Source of the DNA: Flavobacterium ginsengisoli
GTDB taxonomy: Bacteria; Bacteroidota; Bacteroidia; Flavobacteriales; Flavobacteriaceae
DNA length: 64,000 nt
Direction of reading: 5' to 3'
Assembly (NCBI RefSeq): GCF_029625315.1
Contig: NZ_CP121110.1
Span: 5,252,501-5,316,500, forward strand
Every line of letters starts with the position of its first letter. Positions within the stretch are counted from its first letter, which is position 1. Both the position numbers and the translations under genes were made by a program. Shown here in pieces: positions 5,508 to 61,000 of this stretch. The notes below the pieces were generated by a model, which did no database searches, was not told the DNA's origin, and saw only the letters and a list, made by a program, of their open reading frames with translations.

Positions 5508-6300
5508 ATGTCAGAAAATTTAGTAGTACCAACAATGGCAGAAATGCTTGCCGAAGGAAAACAACCAGAGGTTTTGTTTTGGGTAGGTTGCGCAGGAAGT
5601 TTTGATGATAGAGCAAAAAAAATTACTAAAGCGTTTGTGCGTATTTTAAACCGTACTAATGTTTCTTTTGCAGTTTTAGGTACAGAAGAGAGTTGTACTG
5701 GAGATCCTGCAAAGAGAGCTGGAAATGAGTTTTTGTTTCAGATGCAAGCTATGATGAATATCGAGGTTTTGAATGCTTATGAAGCTAAAAAGATCGTTAC
5801 AGCTTGTCCACACTGTTTTAATACTTTAAAAAATGAATATCCTGAATTAGGAGGAAACTACGAAGTGATTCATCATACAGAATTTTTGAAATCATTAATT
5901 GATGATGGAAGATTAACTGTTGAAGGCGGACAATTTAAAGGTAAAAAAATCACTTTTCATGATCCTTGTTATTTAGGTAGAGCAAATAAAGTTTACGAAG
6001 CGCCAAGAGATTTAATTCAGAAATTAGACGTTGAATTGGTCGAAATGAAACGTTCTAAAGCAAATGGCTTATGCTGTGGAGCAGGAGGAGCACAGATGTT
6101 TAAAGATGCTGAACCTGGAAATAAAGAAGTAAACGTTCTTCGTACAGAAGATGCATTAGAAGTAAAACCAGATATTATTGCTTGCTGGTTGCCCGTTCTG
6201 TAATACAATGTTGACAGACGGAATTAAGCATCAAGAAAAAGAAGGACAGGTAAAAGTGCTGGATATCGCTGAATTAATTGCGAATGCACAGGATTTGTAG
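5508..6300 (+). CDS. (Fe-S)-binding protein with CCG cysteine-rich domains (frameshift at 6180-6185)
   Basis: Heterodisulfide-reductase HdrB/GlcF-like subunit with two cysteine-rich CCG domains. ATG at 5508 is preferred to the GTG at 5499. Key motifs: TACPHCFNTLKNEYPELG and GLCCGAGGAQMF, and, after correction, AAGCPFCNTMLTDG. An extra T in GCTTGC (6180-6185) shifts the frame and creates a false stop at 6202; removing it gives 263 aa ending in AELIANAQDL. It is paired with the membrane Fe-S subunit upstream, 136 bp away, and probably works with it in a respiratory or lactate/glycolate-type oxidoreductase. The substrate cannot be called. Confidence 0.87.
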
Positions 6301-6387
6301 TCTGAGGTTCTAAGTTACTAAGATGCTAAGGTTCTAAGACTAAATCTTAAAAATCTAAAATCAACAATCTAAAATCTAAAATTAAAA
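6301..6387. repeat. CTAAGGTTCTAAG-type intergenic repeat
   Basis: Short direct repeats of the form CTAAGATGCTAAGGTTCTAAG (6310-6340, one base variants), followed by AATCTAAAATC repeats. Close relatives lie at 24082-24117, 43662-43702 and 50400-50440. It looks like a dispersed intergenic repeat without coding content. Confidence 0.55.
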
Positions 6388-6871
6388 ATGTATATACCTT
6401 TTGAAAATTTACCAGGTGAATCTAGAGTTTGGATTTACCAGTCGAACAGAAAATTTTCTGAGGAAGAGTTTTCTGAAATCGAAACAGATTTAAAAGCTTT
6501 TGTAGAACAAATGGGCTGCGCACGGCACAAGTCTAGAAGCTTCATTTTTGTTAAAATACAATAGATTTATAATATTGGCAGTAAATCAAGATGTTCAAGC
6601 TGCTACAGGTTGTTCTATTGATAGTTCTGTTGAATTTATTCAAAGTTTAGAGAAAAAGTACAATGTTGATTTATTGGATAAAATGAATGTTACTTTTAAA
6701 CTAGGCGAACATATTGCGCATAAACCATTAATTGATTTCAAGAAAATGGTAAAAGATAAATCAGTTTCTGAGAATACAATTGTTTTCAATAACTTGGTAA
6801 ACAATATTGAAGAATTCAATGAGTCTTGGGAAGTTCCTGCAGCTGATAGCTGGCACAGCAGGTTTTTTTAA
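6388..6871 (+). CDS. Conserved flavobacterial protein, often labelled 'ABC transporter ATPase' (frameshift near 6510-6516)
   Basis: 160 aa after correcting one inserted base. The first half (MYIPFENLPGESRVWIYQSN) and second half (LKYNRFIILAVNQDVQAATG to SWHSRFF) are in different frames that meet at CAAATGGGCTGCG (6508-6520). There is no Walker A, signature or other ATPase motif, so the common database name looks wrong; cytosolic, function unknown. The shift is either one extra A or G just before or inside a GCTGC site, like many other shifts in the window. It lies downstream of the Fe-S gene pair on the same strand. Confidence 0.75.
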
Positions 6872-7020
6872 GAGTGTTTAAAATATATTTAAAAGGCATG
6901 AAATTTAGATTTTGTGCCTTTTTTTTATGGTTTGAAGTTTTAGGTTTCAAGTTTAAAACCTGTTAGGTTTAGTTGTGTAAGGAACTTTGTCAAAGTTGGG
7001 TAATGCTGTTTGTGAATTAA

Positions 7021-7049
7021 ACCCGACAGGTTTTTAAAACCTGTCGGGT
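7021..7049. terminator. Perfect hairpin, possible terminator
   Basis: ACCCGACAGGTTTT pairs with AAAACCTGTCGGGT around one T, a 14-bp perfect stem. It sits about 150 bp after the 6388-6871 gene. The same ACCTGTCG word recurs in the hairpin at 9256-9283. Confidence 0.5.
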
Positions 7050-7106
7050 TTCGTTGCTTAAAGAACTTTTGTAAGGGATGAATTATAAAGTCGGTTTGCG
7101 CATTTT

Positions 7107-8689: not shown

Positions 8690-8703
8690 TTTAAAAGGAT
8701 AAA

Positions 8704-13454: not shown

Positions 13455-15639
13455 ATGCCCCAAAAACGGATTTTTTTACTATTATTCTTGGTTCTGAATT
13501 GCTTTGCCAATTCGGCAATTGCGCAATCTCATTGTAATCTCGATCCTAAAATTGATAAGACTGTAAAAGAAGCACTTTTAAATTTTAGGGAAGCTAATTT
13601 CGAAAAATCACTCATTTATTCCAGAGCAGCCTTAAACGCGGCAACAGCAATAAAAGATTATTGTCTTATTGCTCGTTCCTATAATATTATTGCGGCCAAT
13701 TATAACGAATTAACAGAGTTTGATAAAGCTATTTTTTTCTATAAGAAAGGCCTCTACTACGCTAACAAAACCAATAATGATTCTATAAAATGCCTTCTCT
13801 ATAATAATTTAGGGAATATGTATTGTTTTGAAAAGAAGCAATTTGATGAAGGGATTCGAAATTATAAGAAAGCGGTCGCTTTTGCTTTGAAAATTAATGA
13901 TTTAAAGGAAGTTTATTTTACTAATATCAATATTGCTTGGGCTTATTTTGATATTGGAAATTTCAATCAAGGACATCTTTTTTTAAAATATGTTAACAGC
14001 ACTAAATTAAAATACAACGACGGATCGACAGAAGTTATTGTTGATATGCTGAACGGTATTTATTCTAGTCATATAAAGGATGATAAAGCTGCCAATGCCT
14101 ATTTTTTAAGTGCTATTGAGGCAGGAAAAAAATGTCAAGAAAAATCAGATCTGGCGCATGCTTATTTAGAATATTCTCATTTTTTGAATAAAATCAATAA
14201 ACACAAAGAAGCTTACGGTGCTCTGGTTAATCATTATAATCTTTCGGATAACTTGTATGATGTTAAAAAGCTTAAAAGAGCATCTCAAGCAGGTTTAAGT
14301 CTTGAATTAGATGAATATAAAAGACAGATTGATAAAGTTGAAGGAGAAAAAGTAGAGCAATCTCAGAGTTTAAGAAAATCAAAAATCATTGTAATTCTTT
14401 TTATTTTGATTTCGCTAATTCTTCTAATTTTAATTGTCACTCTGGTAAAGAATATCAGATATAAGAAAAAACACAATTTAGAGCTTCTTAAAGCTAAAGA
14501 AATTGCAGAAGAAGCCTCTTTGCTCAAAACTCAATTTATATCGACGATAAGCCACGAATTAAGAACGCCGCTTTATGGAGTAGTTGGAATTACAAATATG
14601 CTTGCTAGAAGAGCATAAAGAAATTTCGAGAAGCCAGCATTTAAGTTCTCTAAAGTTTTCTGCTAGATATTTGCTGTCGCTCGTAAATGATATTTTGCAG
14701 ATCAATAAAATTGAAGAAAACAAAATCGTTCTGGAAAACCTGACTTTTAATATTTCTGATGAAATAACGGTAATTAAGAATTCGCTTTCTTTTCTTTCGC
14801 AGAAAAATAATAATAGCATTTCTATTGATATTGATCCACATATTCCAGAATATTTAATTGGAGATAAATTGCGTCTGGCTCAGATTTTAATGAACTTGGT
14901 TAGCAATGCGTTGAAATTTACTAAAGACGGGCAAGTTGAAATTATCATAAAACTAAATAAGGTAGAAGGGAAGCTCCATTATTTGGATTTCTTGATAAAA
15001 GACAACGGAATTGGAATTGCAGTTGTAGATCAGAACAAGATTTTTGAAAAGTTTGTTCAAGTTGGCCGAAAAGATGAAGATTATCAAGGTACAGGTTTAG
15101 GACTTAGTATTGTTAAAAGGCTTTTAGGTCTTTTTGGAAGCAGTATTACTTTGGATAGTGATTTAGGAAAAGGAACTTCATTTTCGTTTACAATTGCTTT
15201 TGAGCACGATTTGGCTAAAACAAAAAGTATTATTGATGAGATTGAAGTGGATTTAACTTCGAGCGAAGTTTATAAAATTTTAGTCGTTGAAGACAATTTG
15301 ATCAATCAGCTTGTTACCAAAAAGATTATTGAAAAAAACAATTATGCTTGTAAAGTTGTTGATGATGGTTTTGTTGCGCTTAAAATTTTAGAAGACGAAA
15401 CTTTTGATTTGATTTTAATGGATATCAATATGCCTTTAATGAACGGATTTGAAACTACGAAAAGAATACGTCTTCAAGGAATAGAAACTCCAATTGTAGC
15501 TTTAACGGCTTTTGATAAAGATGAAATTACAGATGAAGCAATTTCGTCTGGAATGAACGATATTATAATTAAACCTTTTGAGCCAGTTAAATTATTTAAA
15601 ATAATCAATTTCTTGATAAACGAAAAAAACGCTGTTTAG
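13455..15639 (+). CDS. TPR-containing hybrid histidine kinase/response regulator (frameshift at 14600-14605)
   Basis: 727 aa after correction. Order: signal peptide (about 1-23), TPR-like helical repeats (about 50-290), one membrane helix (about 311-333), a HisKA domain with [11 protein letters not shown] around residue 369, a HATPase with [16 protein letters not shown] and [10 protein letters not shown], and a receiver domain with [17 protein letters not shown] and IIKPFEP. The sensor TPR part is therefore predicted to be periplasmic. An extra T in GCTTGC (14600-14605) shifts the frame in the HisKA helix. A TATATTTG box lies at 13430-13437. The gene ends inside a terminator shared with the convergent helicase. 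Output target unknown. Confidence 0.88.
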
Positions 15640-15653: not shown

Positions 15654-16884
15654 ATTTTTCTTAGCATTATTTGATTTTCTCGATTTATGAGCGCCACCGC
15701 TTCTGTTTGAGCTTTTAGGCTTTTCTCCAGCTTCCGGACTTCCAGAATGCCATTGATACGGATGATCTGCAATTGTTTTTACATCAACCTTAATTAATTT
15801 CTGAATGTCTTTCCAGTACGGAAGTTCGTCTTTTCCACAAAAAGAAATCGCAATTCCGCCGTTTCCAGCGCGACCAGTACGGCCAATACGGTGAACATAA
15901 GTTTCAGGAATATTAGGTAAATCAAAATTGATTACATAAGGAAGCTGTTCGATATCAATTCCTCTTGCGAGCAATATCAGTTGCAACTAGAACTCCAACT
16001 TCTTTATTTTTAAAAGCGTCTAGAACTCTTTGTCTTGCATTTTGAGATTTGTCTCCATGAATCGCTTCTGCGGGAATATCTTTTTTGCGAAGTGCTTTAA
16101 CAACATTATCTGCACCGTGTTTTGTACGTGAAAACACAAGCACGTTAGATAAATTCTCTTCTTTAATTAAAGTATAAAGCAAGTTTCTTTTTTCGGTTTT
16201 ATCTACAAAATAAACACGCTGCTCTACATTTTCTGCAGTAGATGAAACGGGAGAAACTTCTACTTGTGCTGGATCTTGAAGAAACATTTCTGCCAATTCG
16301 CGAATTGCAATTGGCATAGTTGCAGAGAAAAGTAAAGTTTGTCTGTTTTTTGGAGTTAGTTTTACGATTTTTTTGACATCGTTAACAAAACCCATATCTA
16401 ACATCTGATCGGCTTCGTCTAACACTAAAGTGTGCAAATGATTTAAATCAAGAAAACCTTGTTTATGAAGGTCAAGCAAACGTCCTGGAGTAGCAATTAA
16501 TATATCAACTCCGTTTTTTAAAGCATCAACTTGAGGATTCTGAGAAACTCCTCCAAAAATAGTCAGTTGCGTTAAGTTGGTATATTTTGCGTAAGTGTCA
16601 AAACTTTGTCCAATTTGTACAGCAAGTTCACGAGTAGGTGTAACTACAAGGGCGCGAATTACTTTTGCTTTTTTTGATGAACCGACAATTCGATGTAGTT
16701 GATGTATAATTGGAATAGCAAAAGTCGCCGTTTTTCCTGTTCCTGTCTGCGCACAGCCAATTAAATCACGACCTTCTAAAACAATAGGAATTGATTTTTC
16801 CTGAATTGGAGTCGGATTTAAATAGCCTTCTTCAAATACGGCTTTTTGTATACTTTTTGAAAGTGATAGATCTTCGAATAACAT
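15636..16884 (-). CDS. DEAD-box RNA helicase, RhlE type (frameshift at 15967-15972)
   Basis: ATP-dependent RNA helicase, cytosolic. 415 aa after correction, starting at the ATG at 16884 ([20 protein letters not shown]); the upstream in-frame extension to 16983 is not conserved in character. Motifs: Q motif [39 protein letters not shown] ([13 protein letters not shown]), SAT (FSATMP), VATDIAARGID after correction, and [10 protein letters not shown]. The tail is basic and low-complexity ([20 protein letters not shown]), as in RhlE proteins. An inserted base in GCGAGC (plus strand 15967-15972) breaks the frame in the conserved ATDIAARGID motif, an improbable site for a real lesion in a useful helicase. 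Confidence 0.92.
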
Positions 16885-18156: not shown

Positions 18157-19036
18157 ATGGAAAACCCAAAGAACAACAATTCAAGTCTAAAGGCGGTAAT
18201 CGCGGTTTTAGCAGTCCTACTGATCGGTAGCTTAGTGTATATTTTTAAATTATCTTCTGATACAGAGGTGGTTAAAACTGAACTTACAACAACCTTGACT
18301 GAAAAAGAATCTGTAATGAAAGATTTACAGGAGTTAAAAGCGACTTATGATGCTTGCTATTGCTGAAAACACTTCTATGTCTGACGAATTAATTCAAGAG
18401 AGAGACAAAGTGGTTGCTTTAATGGATGATTTGAACAAATCTAAAGGAGATGTTTCTAAATACAGATCTCAAGTTCAAGCAATGCAAAGCAAAATGAAAA
18501 CTTTAGTTGCTGAAAATGATGAGTTGAAAAAACAAAATGGTGTTTTAACTACTCAAAGAGATAGTACTATTGTAGTTTTAGGAGAATCTAAAAAATATAA
18601 CGAAGTATTAGTTGGTCAAAACGAAGAATTAGCTAAAACGGTAGAGAAAGGTTCTAAATTATCTGTATTAAATACTAAAACTTCAGCTTACAAATTGAAA
18701 AGCTCTGGGAAACAAATCGAAACAGATAAAGCAAGCCGTGCTGATATGTTGAAAGTTAGTTTTACAATTGCTGAAAATCAAATTGCAAAATCTGGAGATA
18801 AAACGTATTATGTTCAAGTTATCGATGCTAAAAACAATGTTTTAGGCGAAAAGAAAACAGAAAACTTTGGAGACAATACATTAACTTATAGCTTCAAAAC
18901 TACAGTAAAATATGAAAATAAAACTGTTCAAGTTAGTGAAGATTTACCAGGAAAAGATTTTGCTAAAGGAACTTATTTTATCAATGTTTTTGATAATGAT
19001 GAGTTAGTTTCTAAAACTAGTTTCAGTTTAAGATAA
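18157..19036 (+). CDS. Membrane-anchored coiled-coil protein of unknown function (frameshift at 18352-18357)
   Basis: 292 aa after removal of one T in GCTTGC. One N-terminal membrane helix (about 13-31, AVIAVLAVLLIGSLVYIF) is followed by a long charged coiled coil (about 35-170) and a compact C-terminal domain (about 185-290) rich in beta strands with MLKVSFTIAEN and YYVQVIDAKNNVLG. The topology suggests a periplasmic coiled coil carrying a small beta domain. I recognise it as a conserved flavobacterial type but know no function. A TAAATTTG box lies at 18126-18133 and a good terminator follows. Confidence 0.8.
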
Positions 19037-19117: not shown

Positions 19118-20354
19118 TTATATAATTTGACCCTCAACAAAAACAGATTCGATAAGATTGCTTCCAAATGCATAAGGAATCTGATAATAAGAAGAAATAG
19201 GTTTTGTTACGATCAAATTGGCTTTCTTGCCTTTTGTAATGCTTCCGTGAGTTTCTGAAAGCCCCATTGCGTAAGCGCCGTTTATTGTAGCCGCATTAAT
19301 AGCTTCTTCTGGTGTCAATTTCATTTTAATACACGCCGTTGCAACTACAAAATTCATATTTCCGGATGGAGTAGAGCCAGGATTAAAATCTGTTGCTAAT
19401 GCTATTGGTAAACCGGCTTTTATCATTTCGCGCGCTGGCGTGTACGGAATACTTAAAAAATAAGAGCAAGAAGGTAAGGCTACAGGCATTGTTTCTGTAT
19501 CTTTTAATGCTTGGATATCTTCTGGATTCATCACTTCAAGATGATCGACAGAAATAGCGTTAAATTTAACTCCAGCTTGGATTCCGCCAATTGAATTAAA
19601 TTGATTGACATGGATTTTTGATTTTAAACCAAAAGCTAAACCTGCTTCCATTATTTTTTCGGTTTCTTCAACAGAAAAATAACCGCTTTCGCAGAAAACA
19701 TCAACATAATCTGCAAGTTTGTTTTTGGAAATTTCTGGCAAGCATTTCGTTAATAATTTCGTCCAGATAACCCGCTTTATCATCTTTGTAATGTAAAGGA
19801 AAAGCATGTGCGCCCAGAAATGTCGCTTTAATTGCAATAGGATAATTTTCTGCTAGTTTTTGAATTACACGAAGCATTTTTAATTCTCCATCAACTGTCA
19901 ATCCGTAGCCAGATTTTATTTCTACGGCACCAGTTCCTAAATGCATTACTTCTTCTAAACGGATTTTAGATTGTTCGTAAATTTCTTCTTCAGAAGAATC
20001 ATTTAGTTTCTTAGCCGAATTAAGAATTCCGCCGCCGCGATTGGCGATTTCTTCATAAGAAAGCCCGTTGATACGATCTACAAATTCCTGTTCGCGGTTT
20101 CCTGCATAAACAATATGAGTGTGGCTGTCGCACCAAGACGGAAGAACAACTTTTCCTGTTGCATCAATTATTTGGTCGGCATTTATTTTTGGAAGATTAT
20201 CCATTGAGCCAAAATCTTCGATCAAATTGTCTTTTAGTATTAAAAAAGCATTTTTAATAGTTGGAAGTTTTGCCATTTCAGAACCTGAAACTTTAGCGAT
20301 TGAAGTTTCGCGAACTTGTAGTAACTCTTGTATATTTTTGATTAAAGTGATCAT
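19118..20354 (-). CDS. hutI: Imidazolonepropionase (frameshift at 19738-19743)
   Basis: Hydrolyses 4-imidazolone-5-propionate to N-formimidoyl-L-glutamate in histidine degradation; cytosolic amidohydrolase. 411 aa after correcting an extra base in GCAAGC (plus strand), which splits the ORF between EIINEML and PEISKNKLADYVDVF. Motifs: CDSHTHIVYAGNREQEF (metal His pair), ANRGGGI, EIKSGYGL, FLGAHAFP, HVNQF, VDHLE and ATDFNPGSTP (metal Asp). Works with the HutG-like protein at 17021; hutH and hutU are not in the window. Confidence 0.93.
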
Positions 20355-21862: not shown

Positions 21863-22667
21863 ATGAGCAAAGTCGTTTTAATTACCGGAGGATCATCAGG
21901 AATTGGAAAATCTATTGGTGAATTTTTACATCAGAAAGGTTTTGTTGTGTACGGAACAAGCAGAAACCCTGAGAAAGTTTTAAATTCAGTTTTTCCTTTG
22001 GTTGCTTTAGATGTTAGAAATTCGGACTCTATTAAAACTGCGGTAGCTAAAATTATTGCAACTTCTGGGAGGTTAGATATTGTAATTAATAATGCTGGAG
22101 TTGGAATTACAGGGCCTTTAGAAGAAATTCCGACAGAAGAAATTAGAAATAATTTTGAAACTAACTTTTTTGGGCCAATTGAAGTTATGAAAGCGGCGTT
22201 GCCACAAATGCGCAAACAAAACTCGGGGCTTATTATTAATATTACGTCGATTGCCGGTTATATGGGACTTCCGTACAGAAGTGTGTATTCTGCGTCGAAA
22301 GGAGCTTTGGAGTTAATTACAGAGGCTTTAAGAATGGAAGTGAAAGCTTTTGGTATCGAAATTACAAATGTTGCACCAGGAGATTTTGCAACCAATATTG
22401 CAAGCAGGGCGTTATCATGCGCCGGTAATTAAAGATTCGGCTTACGAAAAAGTATATGGAGATGTTTTGGCGACAATGAATGATCATGTTGATGCAGGAA
22501 GCAATCCAAATGAAATGGCAGAAGCGGTTTATAAAATCATTCAAACTAAAAAACCTAACGTTCATTACAAAGTAGGCGCTTTTATGCAGAAGTTTTCGAT
22601 TGTTTTAAAACGTGCGCTTCCAGATAAAATGTATGAGAAAATGCTTATGAATCATTATAAGCTATAG
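21863..22667 (+). CDS. Short-chain dehydrogenase/reductase (frameshift at 22400-22405)
   Basis: NAD(P)-dependent oxidoreductase with a Rossmann fold, 267 aa after correction. Motifs: ITGGSSGIGKSIG (cofactor), NNAGVGITG, the catalytic ITSIAGYMGLPYRSVYSASKGA (Ser, Tyr, Lys) and NVAPGDFATNIA. The insertion in GCAAGC lies directly after this last motif; the other frame continues AGRYHAPVIKDSAYEKVY. Substrate unknown. Stand-alone gene between ffs and the aldolase. Confidence 0.88.
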
Positions 22668-24201: not shown

Positions 24202-25672
24202 TTAGTGTCCGCCGCCAGCACTTTCTATGTGACTGATACCTTGTCTTTTTAAGATTTTAGGACAGTAGAAACCATAGAATCCTAAATATGCAAAACCGAT
24301 AAGAGGTACAATGTAAGAGAAGTGAGTGTAAGTGATGCCGAAAATTCCACCTGGATTTGTTGCGTCTAAATCACAGATACTTCCTTGCACTAATGGAATT
24401 ACTCCACCACCAAGAATCATCATGATTAAGAAAGAAGATGCTTTTCCTGTATTTTTTCCTAATCCTGCAATAGCTAAATCGAAGATTGAAGGCCACATAA
24501 TTGATAAGAATAATCCGCCAGAGATAAAGAAGAATTTAGCAATTTCTGGGTTTGGCCAAACTAAACCTAATACCATCATAGTTAATCCTGAAATTCCGAA
24601 AAGCATTAATGTTTTTCCTGCGTTTTTACCACCAACAAAACTTACAGCGATAAACAGCAAAATCCAAAATGGGTAGATGTAAAATGAAGAAACGTCGTGA
24701 GCGACAAAGATGTTTGCGCCAATAATTACTCCAAATGCAGCAAGCAGGAACAATAAATTTAAGTGCAGTATTTACCAAGTTTGAAGTATTGAACACGTTT
24801 GCTCCACCATTCCAACGACCGATCATTAAACTACCCCAGTAAAGCGCAATAAACGGTGCAACAGCGTCTTCTAAGATGTTTCCGAATTCGTGAGTGTGTA
24901 ATAACGCAGGTAAATTACTGATGATTGTTACTTCAGTTCCTACATAAATAAAAATTCCTAACATACCCAAGTATAATTGCGGATAGTCAAGAATGTTGAA
25001 TTTACTGTGTTTGTCTTTTATTATAGCTTCTTCTTCTTTTACAGGATCTTCGATTTTTGAGAAATTCATAAATACTGCAACAGCAATAAATGCAAGACCT
25101 AAGATGATGAAAGGCAATTTAATATCTTCTAGTGAAAGAGCCGTTTTTTTGTTATCTCCCATTCCGAATAAAGCGATACCTAATAAGATTGCTCCAATTG
25201 TTGTTCCAAAAGAGTTGATTCCACCTGCAAGAGTTAAACGGTGTGCTCCAGTTTCCGGACTTCCCATTTTAATCGCCAAAGGATTGGCAACAATTTGTTG
25301 AATAGAAAAGCCTAAACCAACTGTAAATAAAGCTGTTAAAAAGAAAGGGAAGCTCTCGATTGTTGCAGCTGGAATGAATAAGAATGAACCTACAGCTGAT
25401 AAAATTAATCCTGCAGATAATGTTCTTTTGTAGCCATATTTTTGTAAAATATCTACTTTTAAAGAAACGATAAAGAATATAATTGATCCAACAAAATAAG
25501 CGACATAGAAAGCCCAAGCTACTAATTGAGATTGTACTTGCGATAGCGTAAATACTTTTTTGAATACTGGAATCAGGATGTCGTTAGCAGAACCAACAAA
25601 ACCCCAAAAGAAGAAGACGATTATCAAAGAGATAAATTGCCCCCATTTGGTTTGAACATTTTCTGAACTCAT
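24202..25672 (-). CDS. FucP/NagP-like sugar MFS transporter of the chitin locus (frameshift at 24740-24745)
   Basis: Inner-membrane proton:sugar symporter of the fucose permease (FHS) family, 489 aa after correction, 12 helices expected. N-terminal FFFWGFVGSANDILIPVFKK and FSIQQIVANPLAIKMGSPE are typical of the FucP/NagP/glucose-galactose group. The insertion in GCAAGC (plus strand) splits it at ALKFIVP/AAFGVIIGANIF. Given the chitinase, hexosaminidase and NagB genes nearby, N-acetylglucosamine is the likely substrate (inference from context). It is followed on the same strand, upstream of its start, by the LytTR/LytS regulators. Confidence 0.87.
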
Positions 25673-30896: not shown

Positions 30897-32490
30897 ATGA
30901 AAAGAAAATATATACAAAAGTCGATTCTCTGCTTAGGCTTATTAGTCGCTATGAGCTGTACTGATAACTTTGACGAGATTAACTCTGATCCTCAAGGTTC
31001 TACTGCTGAACAATTAGCACAGGATTTTAATAATATCACGGGTTATTCAAAAGTAATGTTCAATTTTATTTTTGAACAAGATCCATTGTGGGGATACCAA
31101 ATCCAGCAAAACTTGCAAGGTGATGTATGGTCAGGTTATATGGCTACTCCAAATCCATTTGGAAGTAATAATAACAACATGACTTACAATCTTGTAAATG
31201 GTTGGAACGGTAGAGCATGGGATGATGCGTACACAAACGTAATGGCAAATGCTCTAAAAATAGAGCATGAGACTAAAACAAAAGGATTATATCCAGAAAT
31301 ATATGCAATGTCTCAGATACTAAAAGTTGAGGCGATGCATAGAATAACTGATATTTATGGACCAATTGTTTATTCAAAATATAGTTCTGAATCTTCAGTT
31401 AAAGAATACGATTCACAAGAACAAGTGTACACGCAGATGTTTGCAGATCTTGATGAGGCTATTGTAACATTAAGCAAAGCGAGCAGATTCTGGTGAAAGC
31501 TCAATTATTACTAAAGCTGATTTTTCTAAATATGGAGGAAGCTATTCTAAATGGGTAAAATTTGCGAATTCTCTTCGTTTAAGATTAGCAATGCGATTAG
31601 CTGTAAAAGCTCCAGCAGTAGCCAAAGAACAAGCTGAAAAATCTATTTCTCAGAAATATGGTGTAATGCTTACTAAAGACGATAGTTTTGTTTTCTTAAG
31701 TGACTTTACAAATCCTGTATATGGAAATAGTAATAGTTATGAAGATATTAACATGTCTGCAGATATGGAATCTATCTTAGTAGGATATAATGATCCAAGA
31801 CTATCAAAATATTTCGCTGTTTCAGTTAAATATCCAGGAGAATATAAAGGAATTAGAACAGGAATTGTTTTGCCAGTTGCTCCAGATGGAGCTACAAAAG
31901 CAGCTCGTAAAGATTTTTCTAAAGTTGGAGAAGCTATAAATGTAAAAGAAACTGTTTTCTTATCTACTGCTGAGGTTTTCTTCTTAAGAGCAGAAGGAGC
32001 TTTGAGAGGATGGAATATGGGAAGCGATGTTCAATCTTTATATGAGGCGGGAATCACAGCTTCTTTCGAGCAGTTTGGAGTTTCTTCATCAACATACAAA
32101 ACTAGTACAGCATTGCCAAAAGCTTATGTTGACCCGCTTGATGCAACAAATAATGTCGCTGCTGTTAATAATGTGACTGTAGCTTGGGAAGCAGGTGCTT
32201 CTAATGAAGTTAAACTTCAAAAAATTATTACTCAAAAATGGATTGCTGGTTTCCCTGACGGACAAGAGGCTTGGACTGAGTGGAGAAGAACTGGATATCC
32301 AAAATTATTCCCAATCACAAATAACACAAGTAACGGAGTTATTAGCTCTCAGTTAGGTGTTAGAAGAGTAAATTTTGTGGCATCTGAAATTGCTGGAAAC
32401 AAAGATGGAGTTGCAACTGGTATTGCTAAGTTAGGTGGACCAGATAACGGTGCAACAAGACTTTGGTGGGATACTGGAGTGAACTTCTAA
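30897..32490 (+). CDS. SusD-like chitin-oligosaccharide binding lipoprotein (frameshift at 31479-31484)
   Basis: 530 aa after correction. A lipoprotein signal (LCLGLLVAMSCTDNF) anchors it on the outer face of the outer membrane as a lid on SusC. N-terminal FDEINSDPQG is characteristic of the SusD-like_2 group. The insertion in GCGAGC separates LSKA from ADSGESSIITKADF. C-terminal helical repeats include TAEVFFLRAEGALRGW and KIITQKWIAGFPDGQEAWTE. Twelve bp downstream of SusC. Confidence 0.92.
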
Positions 32491-32595: not shown

Positions 32596-34534
32596 ATGAA
32601 AAGTGCTTTAGAAATAAAACCTGATATCAGTTATAAAAGCGCGGGAAAATTTGAAGAAACTCGTTTTGAGAAAATTCATAACGAAATTTTCAAAAGTTCT
32701 ATTGAAGCTTCTGTAATTGTAGCGCAGGAAATTGCGCGACTAATTAGATCTAAGCAGGAAAAAAATAAATCTTGTGTTTTAGGTCTGGCAACAGGTTCTT
32801 CTCCTATCAAAGTTTATGAGGAACTAGTGAGAATGCACAAAGAAGAAGGACTAAGTTTTAGCAATGTAATCACTTTTAATTTGGATGAATATTATCCAAT
32901 GACTAAAGAAAATAATCAGAGCTATCATTATTTCATGCACGAGCATCTTTTTAAACATATTGATATCAAACCTGAAAATATTAATATTCCTGATGGTACT
33001 GTAGCAATTGAGGAAATCAATCAATACTGTATTGATTATGAAATGAATATTAAAAATGCGGGTGGTCTTGATTTTCAATTGCTTGGAATTGGTAGAACGG
33101 GTCATGTTGGATTTAACGAGCCTGGTTCGCACATCAATTCAGGAACAAGAATTATTACCTTAGATCATATCACAAGAGTCGATGCTTCATCTGCTTTTAA
33201 TGGTATAGATAATGTGCCGAAACGCGCCATAACAATGGGAGTTTCGACCATTATGAGATCAAAACGTATTGTTTTGATGGCTTGGGGACAAAACAAAGCA
33301 GATATCATCAAAAGAACTATTCAAGGAGATATCAGTTCAGAGGTTCCAGCTACGTTTTTACAAAATCATCCAAATGCAACTTTTGTTTTAGATCAGTCGG
33401 CAGCATCAGAATTAACCCGTTTCAAAACACCGTGGTTAGTCGGTGAATGTCTTTGGACTCCTGAATTAAAAAGTAAAGCAATTGTCTGGCTTTGTCAAAA
33501 AACAAAACAATCTATTTTAAAACTGACAGACCGTGATTACAACAATAACGGAATGTCTGACCTATTGGCTCAAGAAGGTTCTGCTTATGATATGAACATT
33601 AATATGTTTAATATTTTACAGCACACTATTACTGGATGGCCAGGAGGAAAACCAAACACAGATGATTCATTTCGTCCAGAAAGGGCAAATCCGGCAAAAA
33701 AGAGGATTATTCTTTTTAGCCCGCACCCAGACGATGATGTGATTTCTATGGGAGGAACATTTTCAAAATTAATCAAGCAAGGACACGATGTTCATGTGGT
33801 CTACCAAACTTCAGGAAATATTGCAGTTTCAGATGATGAAGCTTTAAAATTTGCAGAAGTTGCCAGTGATTTTATCGGAGAAGGTCAAGCTGATATCAAT
33901 TTCAAATCGGTTATCGAGTTTTTAAATAACAAATCTGAAAATCAAATCGATTCTTTGGAAGTTCGAAAATTAAAAGGACTTATAAGAAGAAGAGAATCTT
34001 ACGGAGCAACAAGATATATCGGATTGAAAGATGAGAATACGCACTTTTTGGATCTTCCTTTTTACGAAACAGGACAGGTTAAAAAGAATCCGTTAGGACC
34101 AGAAGATATTGCTATCGTAAAAGACATTATTGCTAGAATAAAACCACATCAGGTTTTTGTCTGCTGGAGATCTTGCAGATCCGCACGGAACTCATGAGGT
34201 TTGTTTAAATGCCATTTTTGCGACTTTAAAAGAACTAAAACCAGAACCGTACATGAATGATTGCTGGTTGTGGCTTTACAGAGGAGCTTGGCACGAATGG
34301 GACATTCATGAAATTGACATGGCCGTTCCGTTAAGTCCTTCAGAAGTATTATTAAAACGTCATGCCATTTTACATCACCAGTCTCAAAAAGACAGAGTAA
34401 TGTTTCAAGGAAATGATTCTCGTGAATTCTGGGTTAGGGCAGAAGATCGAAACAAAAACACAGCAATTTTATATGATGAACTAGGTTTAGCTGAATATGA
34501 AGCAATAGAAGCCTTTAAACGTTTTGATTATTAA
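32596..34534 (+). CDS. nagB: Glucosamine-6-phosphate deaminase fused to PIG-L deacetylase (frameshift at 34159-34164)
   Basis: 645 aa after correction. The N-terminal NagB domain (about 1-290) has LATGSSPIKVYEEL, NLDEYYPM and GRTGHVGFNEPGS. The C-terminal PIG-L/LmbE deacetylase domain (about 370-640) has FSPHPDDDVISMGG and, across the frameshift, GDLADPHGTHEVC. The fusion could remove the acetyl group and then deaminate, turning GlcNAc-6-P into fructose-6-P plus ammonia in one protein; this is inference. The residue at the E. coli NagB Asp141 position is Thr, while the His and Glu are kept. It lies between SusD and GH20. The frameshift is a T after the first G of GCTGC. Confidence 0.9.
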
Positions 34535-37209: not shown

Positions 37210-40200
37210 ATGAAACATTATTACAGATTGCTCTTTTTGTTACTGTTTCCCTTACTAGTGTTGGCCCAACCGGCTCACGGAAAAAAAGTAGTGGGGTATT
37301 ATGCGCAATGGTCTATTTATGCTCGGGATTTTAATGTTCCGAAAATTGATGGGAGTAAATTGACGCATTTAAATTATTCTTTTTATGGGACCACTTATGA
37401 TCCTGCCCATCCAGAGAATACAAAATTAAAATGTTTAGACACCTATGCCGATTTTGAGCATATGGAAGGCGGAATTCCTTGGGATGCGCCAGTTAAAGGA
37501 AACTTTTACGATTTAATGAAATTGAAAGAAAAGTATCCGCATTTAAAAGTTTTAATTTCTGTTGGAGGCTGGACAAAAGGACAAGATCTTTCTCCAATTG
37601 CCTGCAAGTCCTGTAGCAAGAGCGGCTTTAGCGAGCAGATATGGCAAACTTCATTATTACATATCCATTTATTGACGGTTTCGACATCGACTGGGAATAT
37701 CCTCTTTCGGGCGGAACTGATGGTACAGAAATAGTAAATGGTTCGCCTGTTCCTCCTCAAAAATATAGTCCTGATGACAATAAAAATTTAGTGCTTTTAT
37801 TAAAAGCTATGCGTCAGGCAATGCCAAATAAACTAATTACTATTGCTTGCTGGAAACAATGTTAGAAATGTTTCTAAACAGTATTTAGGACCAAATAACA
37901 GAGCACAATACGGAATGACAGAAGACATTTCGACTTATTGTGATTATATCACCTATTTCGGATACGATTTTGGCGGTAACTGGTATGATAAAACCTGCTA
38001 TAATGCGCCTTTATATGCAAGTGGAAATCCAAATGATCCGTTGTATGGTGCAACACAATCAGAATCATTAGACGAATTAACGAATCAATATTTAAATGTA
38101 ATTGGTTTTCCTGCGAATAAATTAATCATGGGATTACCTTTCTACGGAAAAAAATTCGACAACGTTGCCGCAAATTCAACAAACGGATTGTTTGTTTCAG
38201 CACCAAGATATGTAGTCCCTGGATGTACAAATCCGCAAAACCCAACAGGAACATGGGATGGTTCAGGAGCTTGTGAAAAATCTGGAAGTATCGAAATCTG
38301 TGATTTAGTTGGGAATCCAGTTACTAATTCGCATGCCTATTTAGATCCAAACACGATGATGGTAACGCCATCTGCAGCTTCGGCAGGATGGGTAAGATAT
38401 TTTGATAATACTACAAAAGTTCCTTATTTATATAATGCTACTTCAAAAGAATTTATTTCTTATGAAGATAAACAGTCAATGGACTTAAAAGTGCAGTATA
38501 TAAAATCAAAAAACTTAGCAGGAGGGATGATCTGGGAATTATCTCAAGATACAAGAGGTTCAATTCCCAACGCATTATTAAACCAAGTTGATACTTCTTT
38601 TGGAAGTGTTGTGCCAGGAACAGTTAGTATTTCTGGTTCAGTAAAAAACGGAGCAACTTTAGTTACAAACGTTACAGTTGAATTGCGAAATGCAAGCAAT
38701 GCGGTGATTCAAACAGTAGTTTCTGCAACAGGAAATTTCACATTCAACAATTTAACTTCTGGGCAAAACTATTCGTTAACAGTCGCAAAAGCTAGTTATA
38801 CATTTGTTCCTGTAAGTTTAACGAATGTTACAGTTAATCAGACAGGCGTTACAATCAATGGATCTCAGCCAACTTACACTGTAAGCGGAACCGTTCTAGA
38901 CGGAACAGTAGGAGTTTCTGGTGTTACAGTTTCAGCAGTTTCTGGAACTACAACATTAACAGGAGTTTCAAATGCAAGCGGAGCTTACAGCCTAGCAGGA
39001 TTAACAGCAGGTTTAAACTTTACAGTTACCGCTGCAAAATCTGGATTCTCTTATACGCCAGCGTCAACGGTTTACAATGCAATTGATGCTAATAAAACGT
39101 TGAACTTTACACAAGGTGCTGCAGTGGTAACGTATACAGTAAGCGGAACAGTTCTTAACGGAACAACTCCAGTTTCTGGCGTAACAGTTACTGCATCTTC
39201 TACAGCAGGAAATGTTACTGCAACAACCAATTCAAGTGGAGCATATTCATTGACTTTAGCTTCTGGCGGAACTTATACAGTAACGGCTGCTTTAACAGGT
39301 CAAACATTTACACCAGCTTCAACAGTATATTCTAATTTGAATGCGAATAAAACGTTGAATTTTACTCAAGATGTTGCAACTACAAGTAAAATTAGCGGAA
39401 CAGTTAAAAACGGAACAATTCCTGTTGCGGGTGCAAAAGTAGAAATCGTTTTGCCATGGACAGATAATGCACATCCGTGGAAAAGTGTTTTGGCAACAAC
39501 AGATGCACAAGGAAAATACAGTTTTGATAATGCTGTTACAGACGGTTATACAACTATTACAAGTTTAAAATTAAATACTTGGTCAAATGGAGAAGTAAAT
39601 TATTACCCAAATAATTTGGCAAATTTTCCTGTTCCATCAACTCCAACAGTTTACAACTTTAATACAAGTTCAACAGCAAAAGCGAGCATTGGCAGCGAGC
39701 GACAAACTTAATCAGCGGAACTGTGAAAAATGGTTCAACTCCAGTTGCTAACGCACAAGTTGAAATCGTTTTACCTTGGACAGATAATACACACAACTGG
39801 AAAAGCGTTCTGGCAACAACAGATGCATCAGGAAATTATACTTTCGATAATTCAGTTGTAGCAGGTTATACACAAATTTTAAGCTTGAAATTAAATTCAT
39901 GGCAAAACGGAGAAGTAGCTTATTATCCAAATAATCTAGCCAACTTTGCTGTTCCTACAACGCCAACAGTTTATAATTTCAATACCCAAACAACGGTTGT
40001 AACCAAGCCAGTTGTTGCTATTACAGCACCGACAACTTCGGCGATTGCTATAAATTTAGGATCAGCAATTAATTTTGTTGCAACTGTTGGATTAAGCGCT
40101 GCAGATGCGACTACAATTTCTTCTGTGGTATTTAGTTTAGACGGACAAAGTATAAGTGCGACAAACTCTTCTGGAACTTATACAGCGAGTTGGACACCAG

Positions 40201-42598: not shown

Positions 42599-43374
42599 AT
42601 GCAGAAATTCATTAGCTTAATTACACTACTTTTTATTTTTACAATAAGTACAGCTCAAAACAAATTCGGAAATCCAGAAGTTGATCCCACTCAAATTCAA
42701 AAAACTTACCCAGAATGGGCAGACTTATCAGAATAAAAAAATAATGCTTTCTAGAGACTTTATCGCTTTAGACGCATCTTCAAAAGAAATTACTAAAGAA
42801 TCTTTTTTAGATCAATTGGCAAATGGAAATTTCATTCCAGTTCGATTAAAATCAGAAGAAAGTGTATATGTCTATAAGCTTTTCAAAATCCTGCCAAAAA
42901 CAGATACAAGTATAAAAGCAACCATCAATCAAATTGGTTTTGATGCTTATAAAAACTATAAAATGGAAGGAACAGCTTTTCCGCAATTCTCCTTTAAAGA
43001 TTTAGACGGAAATCTGGTAACTAACGAATCCATGAAAGGAAAAATCATTGTGATAAAATGCTGGTACATTCACTGCACTCCTTGCATTAGAGAATTTCCG
43101 CAAGTCAATAAACTGACTGAAGAATACAAAGACAGAAAAGACATTGTTTTTATGAGTTTAGCCGAAGATTCAGCAGAACAATTAAAAGCATTTTTGGCTA
43201 GAAAACCCCTTTCATATTCTGTAATTCCAGACATGAAAGTTTATATGAATGAATCTCTGCAATTGAATTCTTTCCCAACACATTTTATTCTAAACAAAAG
43301 AAGGAATGATTGCAAAAGTGCTTCCTAATTTTGAGAGTCTGGAAGTGGCTTTGGCTAAAGAAAGTAAGCTCTAG
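42599..43374 (+). CDS. TlpA-like thioredoxin-family protein (two frameshifts)
   Basis: 257 aa after correction. Signal peptide MQKFISLITLLFIFTISTAQ, then a leader region and a thioredoxin fold (about 125-250) with the redox motif CTPC in WYIHCTPCIREFP and a cis-Pro region LNSFPTHFILN. Probably a periplasmic thiol-disulfide oxidoreductase. The first shift is an extra A giving GCAGAC (42719-42724); the second is one A too many in an A run (43296-43299), after which the frame reads KEGMIAKVLPNFESLEVAL. Confidence 0.82.
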
Positions 43375-49492: not shown

Positions 49493-50399
49493 TTGAAACT
49501 AACTATACTTGGCTGTTATGCCGCAACTCCGAGAACACTTACTAATCCGACTTCGCAGGTTCTAGAAATTAAAAACAGATTGTTTTTGATTGATTGCGGA
49601 GAAGGAACTCAGGTACAGCTTCGCAAAAACAAGATTAAATTTTCAAAAATTAATCACATTTTTATCTCGCATCTTCATGGAGATCATTTGTATGGATTAA
49701 TAGGAACTATTTCGACTTTTTCGCTTTTAGGTAGAACTACAGATTTACATATTTATGGTCCGAAAGGAATTAAAGAATTAATTCTTATTCAATTAAAACT
49801 GACTGAATCTTGGACAACGTATTCTTTGTTTTTTCACGAATTAGAATCGAAAGAAAGTGAAGTTGTTTTTGAAGATAAAAAGGTCATTGTGAAAACAATT
49901 CCGCTAAAGCATCGTGTTTATACAAATGGATATCTTTTTCAGGAAAAACCAGATGAAAGAAAACTAGATGTTGAAGCAGTTCAGCGTTATGATATTCATG
50001 TTGCTTATTATCAGAAAATAAAAAATGGCGGAGATATTACGCTTGATGACGGAACAGTAATTGAAAATGAAAAACTTACTTTTGATCCGCCGCCAGCAAA
50101 AAGTTATGCTTTCTGTTCTGATACAGTTTACAATGAAGAGATAATTCCGATTATACAGAATACAGATATTTTATATCACGAATCTACGTTTTTAGAGTCG
50201 GAAGCAAGATTGGCCGAAAAAACACTGCATTCGACAGCAAAAGAAGCGAGCAAATATTGCTTTAAAGGCCAATGTGAAACAGCTTATTTTAGGTCATTAT
50301 TCAACGCGTTATGATGGTCTAGAGCCATTTAAAAAAGAAGCAGAAGAGGTTTTTCCAAATGTGCTTTTGGCTGATGATGGAGTTAGTTTTGAGTTTTAA
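49493..50399 (+). CDS. rnz: Ribonuclease Z (TTG start; frameshift at 50246-50251)
   Basis: Endonuclease maturing tRNA 3' ends. 301 aa after removing one base in GCGAGC. Zinc motif SHLHGDHLYGL, GCYAATPR at the N-terminus, PLKHRVYTNGYLF, FCSDTVYNEEI and HESTFLESEA. After the break the frame gives ILGHYSTRYDGLEPF, including a metal-ligand His. The start is TTG at 49493, since no ATG or GTG precedes the conserved KLTILGCY. Just downstream of the STAS-like gene. Confidence 0.92.
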
Positions 50400-52081: not shown

Positions 52082-54026
52082 TTACAAGGCTGTAATAATG
52101 AATTCGCTTCGTCTGTTTGCTTGATGTTCTGCTTCTGTACATGGAACTCCGTCTGAACATTTATTTACAAGTTGATTTTCTCCGTATCCTTTTCCAGTCA
52201 ATCGGTTAGGAGCGATTCCGTTTTTAACTAACCATTGAATAGTCGATTTCGCTCTGCGGTCAGATAAAGCTTCGTTATACTGATGCGAAGCTCTACTGTC
52301 TGTATGCGAACGGATATCTAGTTTCATTGTTGGATAATCATTCAGAACAACCAATATTTTTTCTAGATCTAAGGCAGCTTCGGTTCTAATATTAGATTTA
52401 TCCAAGTCGAAATAAATCATCTTGATGCCAAAGCATTTTCCTAAATCGTCGCCTACAGTAACCTTACAAGTTGATTTTTCCAATGCAATCGGTAGACTAG
52501 TTTTTCCGCTTGTTTTATCTATAGTAACAGGTAGCTCTTTTGTGGCATATTCTGGTTTTTCGGCTCTTACATAATAGGTTTTCCCGCATTCTACAGAAAA
52601 ACTGTATTTACCAGATGCGTCTGCAACACTAGAATTTTTGAGATTCATTTGGTCATCATATAAAGTAAGTTTGGCTCCAGGAAGAGCAATTCCTGTTTCA
52701 GCATCAGTTACTGTTCCATACAATTCCTGAATACATCTTAATCTTGTGGTTTCTAGAAATCCGTAAATGTCATCAGACCCTTGTCCTCCGTCTTTATTAG
52801 AGGAGAAAAAACCTCTTCTCGTTTCGGGATCAATAATATACGCAAAGTCATCTTTTGGAGAATTGACGTCAGCTCCAACGTTCTGTATATTACTTATTTT
52901 TCCGTTATTGTCAATATTGGCAACAAATACATCTAAACCTCCAAGTCCTGGATGCCCGTCTGAAGCAAAGTAAATTTCATTTTCAGAAGTTAGATACGGA
53001 AAAGTTTCTTTTCCTTCTGTATTAATTGTATTTCCGAGATTTTCTGGTGTACCATAACCTCCATTTGGATTTATGCTGACTTTATACAAATCTGACTGTC
53101 CAATTGATCCTGGCATATCAGAAGCAAAATACAGTGTTTTTTCGTCTGGACTCAAAGCAGGATGAGCCGTACTGTAATTATCACTATTAAAAGGAAGTTC
53201 CGCAATGTTAGTCCATTTATTATCTGGTCCAAGTTCTGCTTTGTAAAGTTTGATTAAAGTGATCTTATTTTCATCCTTTCCTTTCTTTCCGTTGATATAA
53301 TTATTTCTAGTGAAATAAACCGTTTTACCATCTTTAGTAAAAACTGGTGAAGCCTCATGGAATTTAGTATTAATGGCCGATTTAAATTTATTGACTTTTG
53401 ATGTGCTTCCTGTTGCAGGATCTAGATCAGCATCATAAATATTAGTAAAATATTCTCCTGTCCATTTGTGTTTGCGTTGTGTGAAATTCCCTGTATCTCT
53501 TGCAGAAGCAAAATAAATTTTGTTGTTGTAGACAAATGATCCATAATCGGAGTACTTGCTATTGATGCCTGCATTTTCTATTTGGTACCTCCCAGAGTTT
53601 GCTTTAATCTGATCCAAATAGTTTATGTCTTCTTTATAAAGTTTTCCTCTGCTGTCATTTTTTGATTTAGCATTAAACTCATCCAGAAGTTTATTTGCTT
53701 TAGCCATATCTCCGCTTGATTTTAGAGACTGTGCGTATCTAAAATAGTATTCTGGCTCAACATCTGTATTCATTGCAAATAATTCGCCATACCATTTTGC
53801 GAGCATTCTGAAAATCTGAATTAAAATAATAGGCGTTACCTAGTTTTTTAAACATGTCTTCAGACTTATAGCCTTTATTAGCAACTTTTTCATAAGTTTT
53901 AATGGCATCAACATAGGCATAACTGTCATATTTCTTGTCTCCAGAATTGACTTTTGCCTGTTGCGCATAAGTGCTAAATGAAAAAGCGCCTATAATTGTA
54001 ACGAAAAGTATTGTATAGTTTTTCAT
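52082..54026 (-). CDS. OmpA-family protein with TPR and PD40 repeats (frameshift at 53799-53804)
   Basis: 647 aa after correction. Signal peptide (AFSFSTYAQQ), TPR-like helices (about 30-150), a WD40-like PD40 propeller (about 170-420, with SPVFTKDGKTVYFTRN, HPALSPDEKTLYFASD), a carboxypeptidase-regulatory-like domain (YGTVTDAETGIALPGAKL) and a C-terminal OmpA domain (IYFDLDKSNIR, DIRSHTDSRASHQYNEALSDRRA) that binds peptidoglycan. It has the domain layout of the T9SS-associated PorE/SprE-type accessory proteins found next to PorP/SprF genes. It follows PorP/SprF by 12 bp. Confidence 0.9.
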
Positions 54027-58000: not shown

Positions 58001-61000
58001 GAACCACCAAAACAGCTGGTGTTTGTTGCAATTCCGCTAACTGTAACTTTACGTTCGACTGTGAAAGTTTGAACCAATTCGGTTTTATTTCCTGCACAGT
58101 CGGTTAAAGTGTAAGTTCTTGTTAAGATATATGGTTCTCCATCACATCCATTTCCGCCATTGTTTGTATCGTTAACGGTGATATTTACAGTAGGACTGCA
58201 ATTATCAGCAAGCATCTTTAATATCTGATGGATTTCCTACAGGTATTACATCTATACTAGCTAAGTTGGTTACACTTTCTGGAGCTGTTCCAGTTGGAGC
58301 AGTTTTATCTCGTACTGTGATAACTTGAACATGAGTAGTCGTATTGCCACCACAATCACTAATTTTCCAAGTACGAGTCAAGGTATAATTAGAAGGACAT
58401 TCATTTTCAATACCTGATTTCGTTTCTGTATAAACTATTGGTAAGTCTCCATTGCAATTATCAGAAGTATGCATTTCTGCTGGTTCAGGAACTGCATCAC
58501 ATGATACTTCAATATCTAAAGGAAGAGTGCCAGTAAATAGTGGAGCAGTAGTGTCCTGAATTGTAATTATCTGAGTAAAAGTTTCCGATGTATTTCCACA
58601 GTCATCTTTTACAGTCCAAGTATTGGTATATGTTCCAGCATTTGAACAATTTTCAGAAGCCACAAACTGTCCGCTTGCTTTGGTGATGTTTGTGACATCA
58701 GCATCGCATGAGTCAGAAGCAGTTGGGAATTTTGCCTGAGCGGCAGCAAGCCCTTCTGCATCGCTGCATTCTAAAGTTGCATTTAAAGATCCAGCCGCAG
58801 TAGTCCATGTCGGAGCTGTGGTGTCTTGAATCGTAATGATTTGTGTGAAGGTTTCCGATTCATTTCCGCAGTCATCTTTTACGATCCAAGTGTTTGTGTA
58901 TGTTCCCGCGTTAGCACATCCTTCAGAAGCCACAAACTGTCCGCTTGCTTTAGTGATGTTTGTAACATCAGCATCGCATGAGTCAGAAGCGGTCGGGAAT
59001 TTAGCCTGAGCGGCAGCCAGCCCTTCTGCATCGCTGCATTCTAAAGTTGCATTTAAAGATCCAGCCGCAGTAGTCCATGTAGGAGCTGTGGTGTCTTGGA
59101 TTGTGATGATTTGTGTGAAAGTTTCCGATGTATTTCCGCAGTCATCTTTTACGGTCCAAGTGTTTGTGTATGTTCCCGCGTTAGCGCATCCTTCAGAAGC
59201 CACAAACTGTCCGCTTGCTTTAGTGATGTTTGTAACATCAGCATCGCATGAGTCAGAAGCGGTCGGGAATTTAGCCTGAGCGGCAGCCAGCCCTTCTGCA
59301 TCGCTGCATTCTAAAGTTGCATTTAAAGATCCAGCCGCAGTAGTCCATGTAGGAGCTGTGGTGTCTTGGATTGTGATGATTTGTGTGAAAGTTTCCGATG
59401 TATTTCCGCAGTCGTCTTTTACAGTCCAAGTGTTTGTATATGTTCCTGCGTTAGCGCATCCTTCGGAAGCCACAAACTGTCCGCTTGATTTAGTGATGTT
59501 TGTAACATCAGCATCGCAAGAGTCAGAAGCGGTCGGGAATTTAGTTTGAGCATGACAGCAAGCCCTTCTGCATCGCTGCATTCTAAAGTTGCATTTAAAG
59601 ATCCAGCTGCAGTAGTCCATGTAGGAGCTGTGGTGTCTTGGATTGTGATGATTTGTGTGAAAGCTACAGATTCATTTCCGCAGTCGTCTTTTACAGTCCA
59701 AGTGTTTGTATATGTTCCTGCGTTAGCGCATCCTTCGGAAGCCACAAACTGTCCGCTTGCTTTGGTGATGTTTGTAACATCAGCATCGCATGAGTCAGAA
59801 GCGGTCGGGAATTTAGCCTGAGCGGCAGCCAGCCCCTCTGAATCGCTGCATTCTAAAGTTGCATTTAAAGATCCAGCTGCAGTAGTCCATGTCGGAGCTG
59901 TGGTATCTTGAATCGTAATGATTTGTGTGAAAGCTACAGATTCATTTCCGCAGTCATCTTTTACAGTCCAAGTGTTGGTGTATGTTCCCGCATTAGCGCA
60001 TCCTTCCGAAGCCACAAACTGTCCGCTTGCTTTGGTGATGTTTGTGACATCAGCATCGCATGAGTCAGAGGCAGTCGGGAATTTAGCCTGAGCGGCAGCA
60101 AGCCCTTCTGCATCGCTGCATTCTAAAGTTGCATTTAAAGATCCAGCCGCAGTAGTCCATGTCGGAGCTGTGGTGTCTTGGATTGTGATGATTTGTGTGA
60201 AAGCTACAGATTCATTTCCGCAGTCATCTTTTACAGTCCAAGTGTTGGTGTATGTTCCCTCGTTAGCGCATCCTTCAGAAGCCACAAACTGTCCGCTTGC
60301 TTTAGTGATGTTTGTAACATCAGCATCGCATGAGTCAGAGGCAGTCGGGAATTTAGCCTGAGCGGCAGCAAGCCCTTCTGCATCGCTGCATTCTAAAGTT
60401 GCATTTAAAGATCCAGCCGCAGTAGTCCATGTAGGAGCTGTGGTGTCTTGGATTGTGATGATTTGTGTGAAAGTTTCCGATGTATTTCCGCAGTCATCTT
60501 TTACGGTCCAAGTGTTTGTGTATGTTCCCGCGTTAGCGCATCCTTCAGAAGCCACAAACTGTCCGCTTGATTTAGTGATGTTTGTAACATCAGCATCGCA
60601 TGAGTCAGAAGCGGTTGGGAATTTTGCCTGAGCGGCAGCAAGCCCTTCTGCATCGCTGCATTCTAAAGTTGCATTTAAAGATCCAGCCGCAGTAGTCCAT
60701 GTAGGAGCTGTGGTGTCTTGGATTGTGATGATTTGTGTGAAAGTTTCCGATGTATTTCCGCAGTCATCTTTTACGGTCCAAGTGTTTGTGTATGTTCCCG
60801 CGTTAGCGCATCCTTCAGAAGCCACAAACTGTCCGCTTGCTTTAGTGATGTTTGTAACATCAGCATCGCATGAGTCAGAAGCGGTTGGGAATTTTGCCTG
60901 AGCGGCAGCCAGCCCTTCTGCATCGCTGCATTCTAAAGTTGCGTTTAAAGATCCAGCCGCAGTAGTCCATGTAGGAGCAGTAATGTCTTGAACAATTATA

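Follow-up and report, generated by a model that had tools for sequence, protein, structure and literature searches.

The frameshifts that break many genes in a 64,000-base stretch of the Flavobacterium ginsengisoli genome are very probably consensus errors and not real mutations. The stretch (the window) comprises bases 5,252,501-5,316,500 of a genome that consists of one contig of 5,414,540 bases (5.41 Mb). In the explanation that we favour, the errors arise at the pentamer GCWGC (GCAGC or GCTGC), which would be methylated in this organism, in a long-read and most likely nanopore-only assembly. The platform is suggested by homopolymer indels, the single contig and the errors at a motif. An earlier sequence-only reading of the window had proposed that one extra base within GCAGC or GCTGC breaks gene after gene, and had put this down to systematic misreading of a modified motif.

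Our main reference was Flavobacterium sp. IB48, a different strain of the same species, described as sequenced with Illumina 150-bp paired ends and assembled with SPAdes (PMC7975889); the DNA surrounding its copy of one methyltransferase gene (L014, discussed below) is wholly contained in a named locus (L122). The two genomes align at 98.6% identity across 266,561 bases, where F. ginsengisoli has 113 one-base insertions and 60 one-base deletions relative to IB48 besides 3,612 mismatches, and the alignment spans 58,482 of the 64,000 window bases. Completeness is 95.5 for F. ginsengisoli vs 100 for IB48. Three further relatives (G006, G015 and G008) were compared, with G015/G006 as the control pair. 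Their L014 cores match loci of F. anhuiense CGMCC 1.6859, F. chungbukense CS100 and Flavobacterium sp. 270; these names come from a 900-base match, which makes identity likely rather than proven. The placement of the F. ginsengisoli genome in Flavobacterium agrees with L014, which is 94-99% identical in 17 of 51 loci, all from that genus.

The disturbed words listed by the sequence-only reading are present in the window where it had placed them (Table 1). IB48 covers 20 of the 21 coordinates, and at all 20 F. ginsengisoli has a one-base insertion within 8 bases that is absent from the Illumina genome of its own species; the observation is confirmed. At 18 of the 20 IB48 has GCWGC within 8 bases; at 39682 and 53799 it has none. 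For the 19 coordinates given with confidence, 18 are covered, 18 of 18 have the insertion and 16 of 18 have GCWGC nearby. Two more had been suggested as possible cases. At 6510 a run of A has been lengthened next to a GCTGC that is itself intact, which is a common homopolymer error; that at 4097 is a one-base insertion, with the adjoining GCAGC still present.

Over the whole alignment we required clean flanks, which retained 354 of the 373 IB48 GCWGC sites and dropped 19. Of these, 156 are the same in F. ginsengisoli, 133 are substituted, 63 have gained one base, one has lost a base and one has gained two; substitutions, which the sequence-only reading had not noticed, exceed insertions about 2:1. 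Looked up in reverse, 156 of 172 clean F. ginsengisoli sites are the same in IB48 (8 of 180 dropped). Ordinary control motifs agree at 94-96%: CCWGG at 152/158 sites, GATC at 624/651, GGWCC at 75/79, GCWTC/GAWGC at 1013/1064 and GCWCC/GGWGC at 452/481. Agreement is lower for GGCC (149/168), GCSGC (121/138), CCGG (102/124) and CCSGG (9/18). When all 512 pentamers are ranked with the strands merged, GCAGC/GCTGC comes first, with a changed fraction of 0.56 (0.09 in the reverse direction); the runner-up is CCCGG/CCGGG (0.50, 18 sites), and all remaining pentamers lie at or below 0.29. GCAGC/GCTGC also has the highest one-base insertion rate of the pentamers within the species, and 72 of the 113 one-base insertions fall on it. 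The one-base deletions form a homopolymer background, 36 of 60 being in runs of four or more. Genes are not spared: the GCWGC insertions per site are 60/337 in coding and 4/17 in non-coding DNA. In the window alone, taken with no flank filter, 41 of 99 IB48 GCWGC sites are the same, 40 are substituted, 17 have an extra base and one has lost a base. Concentration of errors in one short motif and homopolymer indels in the background are both traits of modification-mediated long-read errors, and both are observed here; a third, a short-read genome of the same organism free of the errors, is provided by IB48 at the level of the species, not of the strain.

The other relatives give the same picture. 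At GCWGC sites with clean flanks F. ginsengisoli has one extra base at 69/669 against G006, 28/280 against G015 and 9/100 against G008; the control pair has none (0/271 and 0/260). With the strands merged, 511 pentamers occur at 40 or more sites in G006, and of these GCAGC/GCTGC ranks first for one-base insertions. It also shows the largest loss of identity relative to the control among the pentamers tested for identity in the G006 comparison. Isolated one-base insertions in G006 genes number 111 for F. ginsengisoli (529 kb aligned) vs 6 for G015 (220 kb aligned), and 68 of the 111 reveal GCWGC once the extra base is set aside. Nonsynonymous change at GCWGC is 28.8% in F. ginsengisoli vs 15.6% in the control relative, and in four of five other motif classes it is lower in F. 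ginsengisoli than in the control. GCWGC density per 100 kb is 70 in 762 kb of F. ginsengisoli vs 129, 137 and 199 in the three relatives, with GCSGC similar. Genome-wide, the word GCAGCAA occurs 358 times in F. ginsengisoli (66 per Mb), the lowest of 61 genomes of the genus, the next being about 134 per Mb; 23 of these densities were computed from rounded genome sizes and the rest judged by eye. The garbled word GCGAGCA is counted 428 times vs 149 in IB48, and by a reading of the table its ratio to a reversed control word appears highest in F. ginsengisoli among 249 genomes. The genome with the apparent second-highest ratio (G102) shows no GCWGC depletion in the 36 kb of it compared. Two other accounts of these figures were considered and rejected. 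Natural avoidance of GCWGC is not seen in G006, G015 and G008, which bear L014 and have 234-274 GCAGCAA per Mb. GCSGC as the target, suggested by extra bases at 26/306 sites against G006, shrinks to 2/138 against IB48.

The errors have a characteristic form. When the 198 changed sites are written as the GCTGC strand, 163 of them consist of G, two to four C or T, and GC, with the outer G and GC unchanged: GTCGC (62), GCCGC (21), GCTCGC (21), GTCTGC (20), GTTGC (19), GCTTGC (18) and two singletons. In the control pair only GCCGC (27) and GTTGC (8) take this form, and we take these two to be ordinary change. It appears that the C-T step of one strand is garbled, as an unfamiliar modified C would produce in a base caller. 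The earlier reading had called the effect partial, and failure of a site does track its flanking bases: of sites in which GCAGC is followed by AA, 53/63 are changed against IB48, by AT 25/34, by CG 1/12 and by GG 1/5, and the same trend is seen against G006. The partial effect is thus largely one of sequence context. The most probable course of events is that GCWGC is methylated in the cell, with 5-methylcytosine most likely placed at the first C of both strands, and that a base caller ignorant of the mark renders this C, together with the T after it, as other strings of C and T on the GCTGC strand. About half of the sites would then stay garbled in the consensus, flanking bases, chiefly A or T after GCAGC, deciding which; about 18% gain a base and are seen as frameshifts, and about 38% are substituted, some 5% of which would be true strain differences.

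The alignment covers 191 IB48 genes of 100 codons or more in full. Of these, 84 are frame-broken in F. ginsengisoli, 57 of them with a GCWGC insertion; the open frames are intact in IB48. For 30 of the 57 we scanned the IB48 protein, and 19 have a family match, including GAPDH, 6-phosphofructokinase, RNase Z and polyphosphate kinase. The dnaE gene, identified by its match to the model for DNA polymerase III alpha, is a single frame of 1526 amino acids in IB48 and is split in F. ginsengisoli, with three insertions inside the frame, all on GCWGC; its second piece contains stops. Gene decay is not a credible explanation because so many genes are broken, dnaE is split, coding DNA is not spared and the IB48 sites are intact; with the garbled C-T step, these observations bear out the view that the frameshifts are systematic read errors.

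Several observations weigh against this explanation. Since IB48 is a different strain, individual site differences may be real. Of the 113 one-base insertions, 41 lie off IB48 GCWGC sites; 23 of these are in runs of four or more, and for some IB48 itself differs at the motif. GCSGC is an exception among the motif classes, with 21.8% nonsynonymous change in F. ginsengisoli vs 10.8% in the control, in addition to its low agreement with IB48. From the window alone no depletion is seen, the GCWGC count of 67 not being below the 63.9 of a dinucleotide shuffle. The rpoC gene is unbroken, and of the six GCWGC sites of its locus four are the same, two substituted and none longer. Finally, five GCWGC sites in the 16S rRNA gene read normally. 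None has AA, AT or TA as its right flank, and by the flank rates the chance that all five stay intact is about 1 in 10, which is mildly adverse. This check compared four identical 16S genes, all with GCWGC intact; a fifth copy, in reverse orientation, gave no valid comparison. Separately, we note a sixth, truncated 16S rRNA match besides five full copies (contig bases 791505-792391), either a partial operon or an assembly fault.

The sequence-only reading had also predicted a methyltransferase of GCAGC or GCWGC specificity. A search of the whole genome, covering the families PF00145 and PF01555, gives two candidates for the enzyme; by elimination, the specificity would belong to one of them. 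Both are full-length PF00145 C5 methyltransferases (L013, 348 bits; L014, 285 bits) with PCQ, ENV and GNSV motifs; PF01555 has no match. PCQ, ENV and GNSV are motifs of C5 methyltransferases. L013 lies at bases 3188408-3189580 of the contig and is followed by an RE_HpaII endonuclease in both F. ginsengisoli and IB48; its frame starts differently in the two (391 vs 421 amino acids), and the part that aligns contains one GCWGC insertion. The L014 match occupies bases 4007513-4008436 on the minus strand, and a gene for a Vsr mismatch endonuclease overlaps it tail to tail (region 4006013-4009936). IB48 carries both enzymes (99% and 98% identical) with its sites intact, so their presence does not by itself alter sequence. 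The nearest named relatives of L014, among the best 120 of 7,991, are Flavobacterium proteins, and their names reveal no specificity. We note that the endonuclease beside the conserved L013 differs between the two strains, with no DNA match across most of the gene, and that both nonetheless match RE_HpaII.

A second error site bears on the assignment. One base is deleted at 5/19 CCCGG/CCGGG sites vs 2/1268 other CCC/GGG runs in 267 kb aligned, and at 2/108 CCGG sites that lack an additional C or G; it is CCSGG (5/18), not CCWGG, that has the deletions. CCCGG/CCGGG is a second probable methylation footprint. A Dcm-like CCWGG, hinted at by the distant relatives as the second motif, was rejected on its agreement with IB48. 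HpaII cuts CCGG. Of the two enzymes, L013 is the best match for CCGG on account of its neighbour and these deletions, which leaves L014 as the candidate for GCWGC. It is possible, and we consider it the less likely case, that the GCWGC mark comes instead from L013 or from another enzyme family, and the restriction of the search to two families leaves room for this; the RE_HpaII gene that follows L013 in both strains and the CCGG-directed deletions point the other way.

Could the base caller fail at GCWGC itself, with no modification needed? Pure context failure would fit the flank dependence equally well. We regard it as very unlikely, given that the garbling fits a single strand, at its C-T step, where 5-methylcytosine is expected, that published motif errors have been tied to methylation for Dcm (PMC6591954) and for GCAGC (PMC10687267), and that two other single-contig Flavobacterium genomes (100 kb each), which may come from other platforms, have 111 and 122 GCWGC per 100 kb. 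More improbable still is that the insertions are real, made in vivo by a process that cuts or mutates GCWGC, with mass gene decay; cleavage with a one-base overhang, fill-in and end joining, for example, would convert GCAGC to GCAAGC. The duplicated-base forms GCAAGC/GCTTGC, at 18/198 changed sites, are what filling in a one-base 5′ overhang would leave, but fill-in does not explain GTCGC, GCTCGC or GTCTGC; the loss would extend to the dnaE and GAPDH genes, and IB48 keeps its sites intact with both methyltransferases. Programmed frameshifting or recoding at GCWGC, to which the sharing of one word by many broken genes might point, can be dismissed, as substitutions outnumber insertions, IB48 frames are intact and insertions also fall outside genes.

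Consensus errors at the same pentamer have been reported. In four strains of Listeria monocytogenes ST87, nanopore consensus sequences have errors at GCAGC/GCWGC when judged against Illumina/Oxford Nanopore Technologies (ONT) hybrid assemblies; as in our explanation a modification system is blamed, and the ONT-only errors survive polishing (Commun Biol 2023, PMC10687267). The cases differ in that the Listeria strains carry mza and were run on R9.4 flow cells, and in that mismatches and not indels are given as the source of the errors, whereas F. ginsengisoli has insertions at 64/198 changed sites. Dcm methylation of CCAGG/CCTGG likewise causes nanopore base-calling errors, and 5-methylcytosine in a short palindromic motif is described as dominating consensus errors (Genome Biol 2019, PMC6591954); motif and enzyme are different there, and CCWGG itself is largely unaffected in F. 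ginsengisoli. Enzymes with the activity that we propose are known. By bisulfite sequencing, M.Pin25611FIII of Prevotella intermedia (PMC5608340) and M.BatI (PMC8936443) are described as C5-methylating the first C of GCWGC, the latter with GCSGC half-methylated. For L014 the specificity is inferred from the error motif and by elimination, and GCSGC is at most weakly affected in F. ginsengisoli, with 2/138 sites longer and 121/138 the same. A narrow literature search found no paper joining nanopore, frameshift, methylation, motif and Flavobacterium; as far as such searches go, the novelty lies in the host, in how many of the errors are insertions, in the rule for the garbled C-T step and in the pair of candidate enzymes.

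Table 1. Disturbed positions in the window, compared with IB48. Gene names in quotation marks are those of the sequence-only reading.
Window positions	Difference	Gene or remark
4093..4102	+1 beside retained GCAGC	
6180..6185	+1 vs IB48 GCWGC	"CCG"
6507..6519	homopolymer insertion beside intact GCTGC, not a motif error	
14600..14605	+1 vs IB48 GCWGC	"histidine kinase"
15967..15972	+1 vs IB48 GCWGC	RhlE-like RNA helicase; intact IB48 protein matches RhlE models
18352..18357	+1 vs IB48 GCWGC	
19738..19743	+1 vs IB48 GCWGC	"hutI"
22400..22405	+1 vs IB48 GCWGC	
24737..24745	+1 vs IB48 GCWGC	MFS transporter; IB48 protein matches MFS sugar transporters
31479..31484	+1 vs IB48 GCWGC	"susD-like"
34159..34164	+1 vs IB48 GCWGC	"nagB"
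37600..37605	+1 vs IB48 GCWGC	
37631..37636	+1 vs IB48 GCWGC	
37845..37850	+1 vs IB48 GCWGC	
39682..39687	+1, IB48 without GCWGC within 8 bases	"chitinase"
39695..39700	+1 vs IB48 GCWGC	same "chitinase" gene as 39682
42719..42724	+1 vs IB48 GCWGC	
50246..50251	+1 vs IB48 GCWGC	RNase Z; IB48 protein is RNase Z
53799..53804	+1, IB48 without GCWGC within 8 bases	
58208..58213	+1 vs IB48 GCWGC	"adhesin"
59550..59559	two extra bases according to the sequence-only reading	270-bp adhesin repeats; outside the IB48 alignment

The last of these positions lies in a tandem array at 58542-60990 (270-bp units, 9.1 copies). A second array occupies 61940-64000 (246-bp units, 8.4 copies), and each is part of a large adhesin-like frame on the minus strand. 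GCAGC recurs about every 270 bases in the first array and is absent near 59553, beside the disturbed word at 59550; this array could act as an internal control.

The density of GCWGC in IB48, 137.5 per 100 kb over 275 kb, extrapolates to about 7,400 sites in the F. ginsengisoli genome, of which about 1,300 would carry a spurious additional base and a larger number a spurious substitution. Protein databases, counts of pseudogenes, trees and metabolic models all take in the false frameshifts, split proteins and altered amino acids that result, and the lower completeness of the F. ginsengisoli genome is an early sign of the error load. Conversely, an error pattern of this kind is a cheap pointer to a methyltransferase, here one for which our searches found no record of specificity. 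We see an even chance that L014 makes Gm5CWGC, that the errors are an unintended record of the methylome, that its neighbouring Vsr is a mismatch nicking enzyme tuned to GTWGC/GCWGC and not to the Dcm word, and that methylation of GCWGC, together with a dedicated repair of its deamination, is an old trait of the clade. If so, insertions, and not only mismatches, would be a read signature of this mark in other unpolished assemblies, and, if L014 makes GmCWGC, the Vsr beside it would need to recognise a different word than that of Dcm.

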